Source: Methylococcus sp. (GTDB taxonomy: Bacteria > Pseudomonadota > Gammaproteobacteria > Methylococcales > Methylococcaceae). Taken from it: 47,956 nt of DNA. The translations under genes were made by a program, and so were the position numbers. Position 1 is the first letter of the stretch, and each line of letters starts with the position of its first letter. The stretch covers positions 1-47,956 of the forward strand of contig QYQA01000082.1 in the NCBI GenBank assembly GCA_007280285.1, written 5' to 3'. Under the pieces are notes generated by a model, which was not told where the DNA came from, ran no database searches, and saw only the letters and a program-made list of their open reading frames with translations. Below, in pieces: positions 9,359 to 27,179 of the stretch.

Positions 9359-9385
9359 AAAAAAGGGGCCATAGGGCCCCTTTTT
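9359..9385. terminator. Bidirectional intrinsic terminator between epmB and pnp
   Basis: GGGGCC (9365-9370) pairs with GGCCCC (9375-9380). The stem is flanked by an A-tract on the left and a T-tract (9381-9385) on the right, so it can stop transcription from both convergent genes. Confidence 0.85.
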
Positions 9386-11918: not shown

Positions 11919-12845
11919 TCATTCGATCGTCCCTGGAGTCCCAAGCTGAAGGATCCGTCTAGGACCCACACGGCCATCATCCAGTACTTCCCCAAGCCCC
12001 ATGAATCCGATGCCGGGGCCATAAAGACGGACCCATCCAGAGGTCGGTGCCTGAGTCACCAACACAGGGTTTCCCTGACGAACAAGCGCGCTCAATGAGT
12101 CACTAAGTTCTACCCGAGGGAAATGGGCTACTAGACCGTCCATGGGCTGAAGGCACCGATCTCGAACAGGAAGTTCCAACGCCTCAAGGCCATCCACCGT
12201 CGTGGCGTTTTCGAGGCGGAGATCGCCCACAGCGGTCCTCCTCAACACTTCGACATGCCCCCCACAGCCTAGGGCGCGACCAATATCCTGGGCCAGCGAA
12301 CGAATATAGGTCCCCTTGGAGCAATGAACTTCAAGATCCAAGGACGTCTCAGTAAAGCCTTGGAGAAGGAGTTCGTAAATCGTAATAGGGCGCGGCTCAC
12401 GTTCAATGTCGAGCCCTTTTCGGGCCAGGTCGTAGAGCCTTTGCCCCTGATGTTTTAGCGCCGAATACATCGGCGGCACCTGGGCAATCGCTCCTCGAAA
12501 CGGCGTCAGGACCTCATCGATCAGGCTGGCCGTCAGCGGGGGGACTTCACCTTGCAAGATCACCGCCCCTTCGATGTCCGCCGTGTCCGTCTCAACGCCG
12601 AGCCTGACCCTGACCACATATCGTTTGTCGGAATGAAGGAGATAACTCGAAAGCTTGGTGGCCTCCCCAAGACAAATCGGCAAAAGCCCGCTCGCAATCG
12701 GATCAAGACTTCCGGTATGACCCGCCTTTTGAGCGTTAAAAAGCCGCTTGACCTTCTGGAGGGAAGCGTTCGAGGAATAACCAGGGACCTTGTCCAGCAG
12801 AAAAACCCCATGGATGGGGCGACGATTTGAACGAAACTGACTCAT
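11919..12845 (-). CDS. truB: tRNA pseudouridine(55) synthase TruB
   Basis: A 308-residue pseudouridine synthase that modifies U55 in the T-loop of all elongator tRNAs. The catalytic motif [23 protein letters not shown] contains Asp48. [17 protein letters not shown] and the [15 protein letters not shown] motif are intact, followed by a C-terminal PUA-like domain. Its ATG overlaps the rbfA stop codon (ATGA), which indicates translational coupling. It is the last gene of the rimP operon before the rpsO promoter. Confidence 0.96.
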
Positions 12846-13224
12846 TCGTCCCGATCATCATCCCGCAGGAGCTTGGGTTGCTCTTCAAGACCTTTGAGCA
12901 ACGCATCCATATGCATCCCTCGCTCAATCGAATCATCGTAGGCGAACCTGAGCTCAGGGAGAACTCGGATTCGGATTCTTTTGCCTAGCTCTCGGCGAAG
13001 CTCCGGAACATCCTGCATCAATCGCTTGACAGCCTCTTTCACCGGCAACTTGGCCGCAAGAAAACTGACATAAAGTTTAGCAACCGACAGATCGCGACTC
13101 AACTCAACATCACTGACAGTGATCATGCCAAGCTTGGGATCCTTCATATGGGTTCTGAGGATCTCTGCCATTTCCCGCTGAATCTGAGAGGCGACCCGAT
13201 CGCTGCGGCTGAACTCTCTAGGCA

Positions 13225-13225
<1 letters not shown>
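12842..13225 (-). CDS. rbfA: 30S ribosome-binding factor RbfA
   Basis: A 127-residue KH-like protein that binds immature 30S subunits and aids 16S 5'-end processing and cold adaptation. It opens [23 protein letters not shown], typical of the family, and has the [19 protein letters not shown] core strands. Its start overlaps the infB stop by one base (TGATG) and its stop overlaps the truB start (ATGA). The three cistrons are thus tightly coupled. The acidic tail DDDRDE is short. Confidence 0.96.
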
Positions 13226-15813
<2,588 letters not shown>

Positions 15814-15840: not shown

Positions 15841-17346
15841 TTAACTTTCCGCAAACCAGGGCCGGCGAGCGACCATGATCAACTGGCCCGCTCGCACTTC
15901 GTCCATTCCCTCGATATCCAACATTTCATCGATGGACAACTCAGCAAGATCCTCCATGGTGGTGATTCCCCGACCAGCAAGCGCTTCTGCAAGGACTGGA
16001 TCCATTCCTTCCATAGTCAGGAGCTCAGCCGTCGGCGCCCCAGGCTCGAGCTTCTCTTCAGTGGCAATCGCCTTGATCAGAAGAGCGTCCCGGGCACGAT
16101 TACGCAGCTCCTCCACAATATCTTCGTCAAATTCGTCGATTTCCAGCAATTCCTTAGCAGGAACATAGGCCAACTCTTCGACCGTTGAAAAGCCTTCCCG
16201 CACCAAAATTTCTGCGACGCCTTCATCCACATCCAACTGCTGGACGAAAGACTGAATCAGGATCTCGGTTTCCTTTTCACTCTTTTCCTCGGCCTGCGTC
16301 TCACTCATGACGTTCAGCGTCCATCCGGTCAGCTCAGACGCCAAGCGAACATTCTGACCCCCGCGACCAATGGCCATCGAGAGATTTTCATCACTGACAG
16401 CGATATCCATGGAGTGACGGTCTTCATCCATCACGATAGAGACGATCTCCGCCGGGGACATCGCATTCACTACAAACTGAGCTTCATTTTCATTCCAGAG
16501 AATGATATCCACCCGCTCTCCCGCCAATTCGTTGGAGACCGCCTGAACCCTTGACCCCCGCATGCCGACACAAGCACCCACAGGATCAAGCCGAGGATCA
16601 TGGCTTCTGACCGCGATCTTGGCCCTGACGCCAGGATCCCTCGCGGCACCCACAATTTCGATGATGCCTTCGCTGACTTCCGGCACCTCCAGTTTGAAAA
16701 GGGCAACAATGAGGTCAGGCGATGTCCTCGTGACGAACAACTGCGGTCCTCTCACCTCTTGGCGAACCTCCTTGAGGTAACCGCGGAGACGATCACCGGA
16801 GCGCACGGCTTCCCGCTGGATCATTTCTTCCCGAGGAATAAAGGCTTCAACGTTGTTGCCGAGATCAAGGAAAACATTACCGCGCTCTACGCGCTTAATG
16901 ATCCCGGTGACCAGCTCACCCACCCGATCCTTGTAAGCCTCAACCACCTTCCTGCGCTCGGCATCCCGAACCCGCTGAACGATGACCTGCTTCGCAGTCT
17001 GGGCTTCGATGCGGCCAAACCCGATGGACTCCATGGGTTCGATGACGAAGCCGCCAACCTCGGCACTGCCGAAACGTTGGCTCGCATCCTCAAGGGTCAT
17101 CTGCAGTTCAGCATTGAACGGCTCCTCGATCGTGCCTTCATCTGACTCGACCACGGTCCAGCGCCGAAAGGTGTCGTAGTCACCGGTTTTACGATCAATT
17201 TTGATCTGCGCGTCAAGACGGTTTTCATAGCTCTTCATGGTCGCCATCCGAAGCGCGTCCTCAATCGCTGCGAAAACGATCTCCTTCTCGATGTCCTTCT
17301 CGTGAGAAAAGGCATCAACGACCAGCAGGATTTCTTTGTTTGCCAT
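15841..17346 (-). CDS. nusA: Transcription termination/antitermination factor NusA
   Basis: A 501-residue NusA beginning MANKEILLVVDAFSHEK. The order is N-terminal RNA polymerase-binding domain, S1 domain (GIIKRVERGNVFLDLG), KH1, KH2 (ENLSMAIGRGGQNVRLASELTGW) and two C-terminal acidic repeat domains, as in Escherichia coli. The ATG at 17346 is chosen over one five codons upstream (17361) because family members start MxxEIL. NusA binds RNA polymerase and stimulates pausing and intrinsic termination. This is notable because the operon leader carries two terminators. It follows rimP by 18 bases. Confidence 0.97.
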   Translation of the reverse strand: MANKEILLVVDAFSHEKDIEKEIVFAAIEDALRMATMKSYENRLDAQIKIDRKTGDYDTFRRWTVVESDEGTIEEPFNAELQMTLEDASQRFGSAEVGGFVIEPMESIGFGRIEAQTAKQVIVQRVRDAERRKVVEAYKDRVGELVTGIIKRVERGNVFLDLGNNVEAFIPREEMIQREAVRSGDRLRGYLKEVRQEVRGPQLFVTRTSPDLIVALFKLEVPEVSEGIIEIVGAARDPGVRAKIAVRSHDPRLDPVGACVGMRGSRVQAVSNELAGERVDIILWNENEAQFVVNAMSPAEIVSIVMDEDRHSMDIAVSDENLSMAIGRGGQNVRLASELTGWTLNVMSETQAEEKSEKETEILIQSFVQQLDVDEGVAEILVREGFSTVEELAYVPAKELLEIDEFDEDIVEELRNRARDALLIKAIATEEKLEPGAPTAELLTMEGMDPVLAEALAGRGITTMEDLAELSIDEMLDIEGMDEVRAGQLIMVARRPWFAES

Positions 17347-17364: not shown

Positions 17365-17817
17365 TTAATTGTCAAATTGCGGCGACAATCGCGCCTTCTC
17401 AATCATGTCAAAAGGAACTCTGAAGGTCAGACCATCCTCGACCAGGATCAGGTCATGACCATCAATGCCCTCAATCAGCGCCTTGAATCGGCGGCGGCCT
17501 TCAAGAGGCCTTGAAAGCTGCAAGCGCACCAGCTCGCCTTTAAAGCGTTCGAAGTGTTCGAGGGTGAACAACGGACGATCCATGCCGGGGGATGAGACCT
17601 CAAGCTGATAGCGTCCTGGAATAGGGTCTTCAACATCGAGAACACCGCTCAATTGATAGCTCACCTTGGAGCAGTCTTCCACCCGGATCCCCTCAGGGTG
17701 ATCGATATAGACCCTGAGTACCCGCTGATGCCCGTCAAACTCAAGCCCGACGAGTTCATAGCCCAGCCCGGTCACCACCGGATCAAGAAGCTCTGTCAGC
17801 CCCTTACTTGCCTTCAA
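17365..17817 (-). CDS. rimP: Ribosome maturation factor RimP
   Basis: A 150-residue RimP starting LKASKGLTELLDPVVTGLGYELVGLEF. I chose the TTG at 17817 because the product then has the length of Escherichia coli RimP and a GAGGTGG ribosome-binding site (17821-17827) lies just upstream. An ATG further upstream (17925) would run through both leader terminators and is rejected. RimP is needed for maturation of the 30S subunit. A rare TTG start plus leader terminators suggests expression is held down. It is the first gene of the rimP-nusA-infB-rbfA-truB operon. Confidence 0.93.
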   Translation of the reverse strand: MKASKGLTELLDPVVTGLGYELVGLEFDGHQRVLRVYIDHPEGIRVEDCSKVSYQLSGVLDVEDPIPGRYQLEVSSPGMDRPLFTLEHFERFKGELVRLQLSRPLEGRRRFKALIEGIDGHDLILVEDGLTFRVPFDMIEKARLSPQFDN

Positions 17818-17838
17818 GCACCACCTCAAAAACGTCCG

Positions 17839-17865
17839 AAAATAAAAAATGGGCGCGAAGCCCAT
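17839..17865 (-). terminator. Intrinsic terminator 2 in the rimP leader
   Basis: On the minus strand ATGGGC (17860-17865) and GCCCAT (17849-17854) form a stem with a TTCGC loop. A T-rich run TTTTTTATTTT follows (to 17839). It sits only about 20 bases before the rimP TTG. The plus strand has no T-run after the stem, so it acts only toward rimP. Confidence 0.8.
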
Positions 17866-17880
17866 CCCGTCAACCAGTCC

Positions 17881-17909
17881 CTTAAAACCAAAAACGCCCC
17901 GATGGGGCG
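17881..17909 (-). terminator. Intrinsic terminator 1 in the rimP leader
   Basis: On the minus strand CGCCCC (17904-17909), loop ATC, GGGGCG (17895-17900), then TTTTTGGTTTT. No minus-strand gene exists upstream for it to terminate, because hslR diverges. It is therefore a leader element. Confidence 0.75.
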
Positions 17910-17920
17910 AATGTCGAGAC

Positions 17921-17942
17921 GGCACCGGTTTGAGCCTGTGCC
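17921..17942 (-). promoter_or_regulatory. Third hairpin of the rimP leader
   Basis: On the minus strand GGCACAGG, loop CTCAAA, then CCGGTGCC: a stem with one internal mismatch and no T-run. It is upstream of the two terminators and could be a NusA-binding, pausing or antiterminator element. Confidence 0.4.
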
Positions 17943-17960
17943 ACCCAAAAAAGGAATGTT

Positions 17961-17988
17961 AGCATATCCTTTAAAATTAGTCGAATAA
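17961..17988 (-). promoter_or_regulatory. Weak candidate promoter of the rimP operon
   Basis: A -10-like TATGCT on the minus strand (17961-17966) lies in an AT-rich segment with a poor -35 (TTATTC, 17983-17988). It is the only AT-rich promoter-like stretch between hslR and the leader hairpins. Transcription would start near 17954. Confidence 0.3.
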
Positions 17989-18060
17989 ACGCCGCTCTCA
18001 TCGGCCCACCTCTGAGGCCGATTGAGAGGACATGACCCCACCTTAGGCTTTGTAGCGCCG

Positions 18061-27149: not shown

Positions 27150-27179
27150 AAAAAAAAGGGGCCCCAAAGGCCCCTTTTT
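27150..27179 (-). terminator. Strong terminator after the outer-membrane protein gene
   Basis: AAAAAGGGGCC (27153-27163) pairs with GGCCCCTTTTT (27169-27179). The A-tract at 27150-27157 gives a T-run on the minus strand, placing it 16 bases after the barrel gene stop and before pip. Confidence 0.88.

Follow-up and report, generated by a model that had tools for sequence, protein, structure and literature searches.

A tandem-terminator rimP-leader ahead of the rimP-nusA operon of a methane-oxidizing Methylococcaceae bacterium

The rimP-nusA operon of a Methylococcus sp. is preceded by two tandem intrinsic terminators, and the leader that carries them very probably acts as a transcription attenuator, most likely one at which NusA raises termination. 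It belongs to a described class of element, the tandem gammaproteobacterial rimP-leader. The leader lies on the minus strand of the window, i.e., the whole 47,956-nt stretch of DNA that was analyzed, which comes from an incomplete assembly (2.2 Mb) of an uncultured, methane-oxidizing member of the Methylococcaceae. The NusA encoded here shares 96–97% identity with its nearest named records, which are Methylococcus-like Methylococcaceae MAGs. The features of the leader and of the operon, in the order in which they would be transcribed, are as follows.

17956..17964, minus strand: extended -10 promoter-like box, TGCTAACAT; T25, G26, T28, A29, A32 and T33 vary little or not at all across 30 family leaders
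about 17948-17914, minus strand: P0 hairpin, between the putative transcript start and T1; MFE -16.1 kcal/mol, z -2.6
17909-17895, minus strand: intrinsic terminator T1; stem CGCCCC/GGGGCG, loop AUC, U-tract to about 17885
17868-17846 (to 17840 with its U-tract), minus strand: intrinsic terminator T2; stem GGGAUGGGC/GCCCAUUUU, with a nearly invariant GGGC..GCCC
17821..17827, minus strand: likely Shine-Dalgarno sequence, GAGGTGG, read from the sequence; its GAGG ends 6 nt before the TTG
17365..17817, minus strand: rimP, TTG start; Pfam RimP_N and RimP C-terminal domains in the translation
15841..17346, minus strand: nusA; Pfam NusA_N, S1 and KH_5
13225..15813, minus strand: infB; Pfam IF-2 domains
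12842..13225, minus strand: rbfA; Pfam RBFA
11919..12845, minus strand: truB; Pfam TruB_N

Read on the minus strand, T1 is CGCCCC-AUC-GGGGCG followed by UUUUUGGUUUU, and T2 is GGGAUGGGC-UUCGC-GCCCAUUUU followed by UUAUUUU. Upstream of both, the letters TGnTAnnAT recur 42–70 nt before T1 in the aligned family leaders, and no clear -35 box accompanies them. They are best read as an extended -10 box; transcription would therefore begin upstream of T1 and T2, at about 17949. Almost every family leader has a hairpin in the place of P0 (mean z -1.2), and its sequence is not conserved.

The gene upstream of the leader encodes an S4-domain, HslR-like protein and runs divergently (plus strand, from about 18058), so T1 and T2 are needed by no minus-strand gene. 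The original prediction, which had described two minus-strand terminators and a third hairpin (P0) upstream of rimP with no upstream gene in need of termination, is thus borne out, and a pair of terminators serving an upstream gene is ruled out by the divergent orientation of the neighbor. The same arrangement bears on the idea that the terminators are fixed and unregulated, and serve to protect the operon against transcription arriving from upstream or to release a small RNA. The rimP leader is indeed listed among the ProQ-bound small RNAs that derive from attenuators (PMC5391140), but the window holds no upstream minus-strand gene, the promoter-like box stands between any upstream source and T1, and placing two unregulated terminators ahead of essential genes would waste transcription; this explanation is very unlikely.

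The region between the promoter-like box of rimP and the divergent hslR-like gene contains a 35-nt inverted repeat (window 17994-18028, CTCTCAATCGGCC..GGGCCGATGAGAG, z -3.4). The corresponding hairpin (18028-17994) was rejected as a part of the rimP leader because it is located upstream of the -10 box, occurs as a single copy in the genome, and was not seen in the upstream sequence of the two closest relatives. It may be part of the hslR-like gene's 5′ region. Elsewhere in the window, two strong hairpins with A and T runs on either side are found at 27154-27178 and 9364-9381, and these are likely two-way terminators.

The rimP start codon is a TTG (17817-17815, minus strand), which is plausible because a GAGG stands 6 nt upstream. 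Four of the five same-genus relatives that were read also use TTG, while in the rest of the Methylococcaceae rimP mostly begins with ATG. The TTG had been proposed as a second brake on expression. This start is largely confined to this genus, and for that reason the proposed brake falls outside the conserved element.

Terminator-like sites, taken singly, are not more common in this region than expected by chance, with three found against 2.2 expected in 2 kb. A close pair on the same strand is rarer, being unique in the 48-kb window and present in 2 of 100 dinucleotide shuffles. It is conservation that provides the decisive evidence for the terminator pair. T2 is found in all 34 of the readable Methylococcaceae leaders, and T1 at its usual spacing in 30 of the same 34, being missing or displaced in the other four (L028, L033, L034 and L035). 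A covariance model covering both terminators, referred to as R1, was built from family leaders only. It finds the window leader at an E-value of about 5e-11, the window being one of its source sequences, and it finds leaders in other families of the order, which were not used in building it, at E-values down to 4e-9. In the alignment, 84.9% of the cells are paired, compared with 25–61% when the partner is slid, a figure that comes from related rows in a structure-fitted alignment. At T1, two-sided, compensatory changes occur at all six pairs across the order. T2 hardly varies inside the family (GGGC..GCCC), so its pairing is backed mainly by the stem of another family of the order, GAGCC..GGCUC, which differs in sequence and pairs equally well. 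The conservation of stems in relatives, a comparison that the original prediction had called for, is therefore evident for both terminators.

The reach of the element extends beyond the order. Among 274 genomes of the class Gammaproteobacteria, R1 has matches in 21, and in 12 of the 17 such matches that were read rimP lies directly downstream. Several of these rimP-adjacent matches have no tRNA gene within the sequence that was read. In the other five, rimP was not detected nearby and the match was taken as chance. R1, which was made without E. coli, also finds the leader of E. coli K-12 (E 8.5e-6 in 801 bases), and the match falls between metY and rimP, inside the stretch assigned to Rfam family RF01770 (102 bits; NC_000913.3 3318024-3318124). 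The reverse comparison is weaker. RF01770 aligns to the window leader end to end and in the right place, yet with only 16.6 bits (E 4.2), below its gathering cut-off of 47 bits; it scores 28.5 in another Methylococcus genome (L016), and the cut-off is not reached by any genome of the order. Under Rfam's rule the leader therefore does not count as a hit to RF01770, and its assignment to the tandem gammaproteobacterial rimP-leader rests on motif, place, covariation, and the E. coli bridge. Other Rfam elements gave weak chance matches only.

The surroundings of the leader differ among the families of the order with respect to tRNA genes. In families other than the Methylococcaceae, an initiator-type tRNA-Met gene lies a few bases before T1, and in one genome of another family (L045 165-338) two tRNA-Phe genes take its place before the rimP leader. 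In the Methylococcaceae, ARAGORN places a tRNA-Met at the rimP locus in 1 of 32 stretches, and at the locus in the window there is no tRNA gene upstream of the leader. The initiator-type tRNA-Met of this genome is located on another contig (L085 512-588), where it apparently adjoins a pgpA-like gene and apparently has a terminator of its own. The original prediction had regarded a double terminator in a gammaproteobacterium, and one lacking an upstream tRNA gene, as unusual. This claim of rarity proved wrong, as the tandem arrangement is the published gammaproteobacterial form (RF01770), with both terminators present in E. coli, and absence of the tRNA gene is the rule in the Methylococcaceae.

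Proximity to tRNA-Met elsewhere in the order means that T1 may descend from a tRNA terminator. One reading, which we consider a genuine possibility without favoring it, is that T1 is a mere leftover from a tRNA-Met formerly upstream, acting as a passive reducer of expression, while T2 alone is regulatory. The position of tRNA-Met directly before T1 in other families, its presence on another contig in this genome, and the occurrence of T2 in every family leader when T1 is missing or displaced in four would all fit such a history. Against it, leaders that have no tRNA still preserve the T1 stem, with compensatory changes, and in E. coli T1 persists at a distance of about 120 nt from metY. A more elaborate history can be offered tentatively, as rather less likely than not: once the tRNA left the locus in the Methylococcaceae, the terminator of the initiator tRNA became the first of two rimP-nusA attenuators, with a promoter and a pause-type P0 placed before it. 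That tRNA-Met is gone and T1 kept in the mRNA leader is the sole mildly new point of this analysis, one that was not found described, and its weight is small.

If transcription does begin at about 17949, RNA polymerase would meet T1 and then T2 before reaching rimP, and only those polymerases that read through both would express rimP-nusA-infB-rbfA-truB. What sets the level of readthrough is probably a protein. An RNA switch, in which an antiterminator forms between P0 (or its 5′ arm) and an arm of T1 (or T2) and a ligand or leader event selects the form, has a precedent in the clear potential antiterminator reported for the tandem form (PMC2965389), and pairings of this kind can be drawn for the window leader, where GGGUGG could base-pair with UCGCCC of T1 or, in the full fold, with CGCCCA of T2. 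The full leader folds slightly better in this T2-breaking form (-45.1 versus about -40 kcal/mol for the summed separate hairpins), and the same type of fold occurs in the closest relatives and is absent from most of the family. Over 28 leaders, however, shuffling P0 leaves its pairing with T1 just as strong (mean z +0.15), so no evidence for a switch was seen, and the sequence of P0 is not conserved; we regard this alternative as improbable. The lack of an antiterminator above the level of shuffled sequence fits protein-modulated termination. With an RNA switch improbable and the terminators serving no upstream gene, a protein acting on termination is suggested, with NusA the best candidate. 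NusA made from the operon would most likely raise termination at both sites, T1 and T2, thereby limiting its own synthesis. The autogenous attenuation put forward in the original prediction is accordingly a reasonable reading: the terminators do belong to the leader of the operon itself, their stems are conserved, and a conserved promoter-like box precedes them, while control by NusA is a published hypothesis (PMC2965389).

The finding is real but ordinary, since the element was described as early as 2010 and occupies the same place in E. coli, and it leaves the picture of NusA autoregulation unchanged. What is gained is a wider range for a described attenuator, which now includes a family of methane oxidizers that the Rfam model misses at its cut-off, an example of the tandem form surviving without a neighboring initiator tRNA gene, and a comparison in which T2 stands out as a nearly invariant core and T1 as an upstream terminator that varies more.

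Among known systems, the closest is the rimP-leader of Naville and Gautheret (2010, PMC2965389), who reported that attenuators precede rimP more often than any other gene and proposed NusA as the regulator. Its terminator carries the motif GGGc..gCCC. The general form, including that of Firmicutes, has a single terminator, and several Gammaproteobacteria have a second, tandem terminator upstream with the inverse motif CCCg..cGGG. The window leader shares with the tandem form (PMC2965389; RF01770) its 5′ leader position before rimP-nusA-infB, its two terminators with U-tracts and their spacing, the polarity of the stems (CCC..GGG, then GGGC..GCCC), and the end-to-end alignment to the Rfam model. 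It differs in its score (16.6 versus 47 bits) and in having a promoter-like box 42–43 nt before T1. It is taken as a further case of the described element. The E. coli metY-rimP-nusA-infB leader has its terminators t1 and t2 where T1 and T2 lie here, together with several promoters and the initiator tRNA gene metY upstream, unlike the window leader; its transcripts rise when NusA termination is reduced, and autogenous control by NusA is supported there (PMC6511841). Finally, the B. subtilis nusA operon, which the original prediction had cited for NusA-dependent leader termination, is likewise preceded by a site of termination. NusA autoregulation through it is stated as established in PMC12288461, and the likeness to the window leader lies in termination ahead of the nusA operon.
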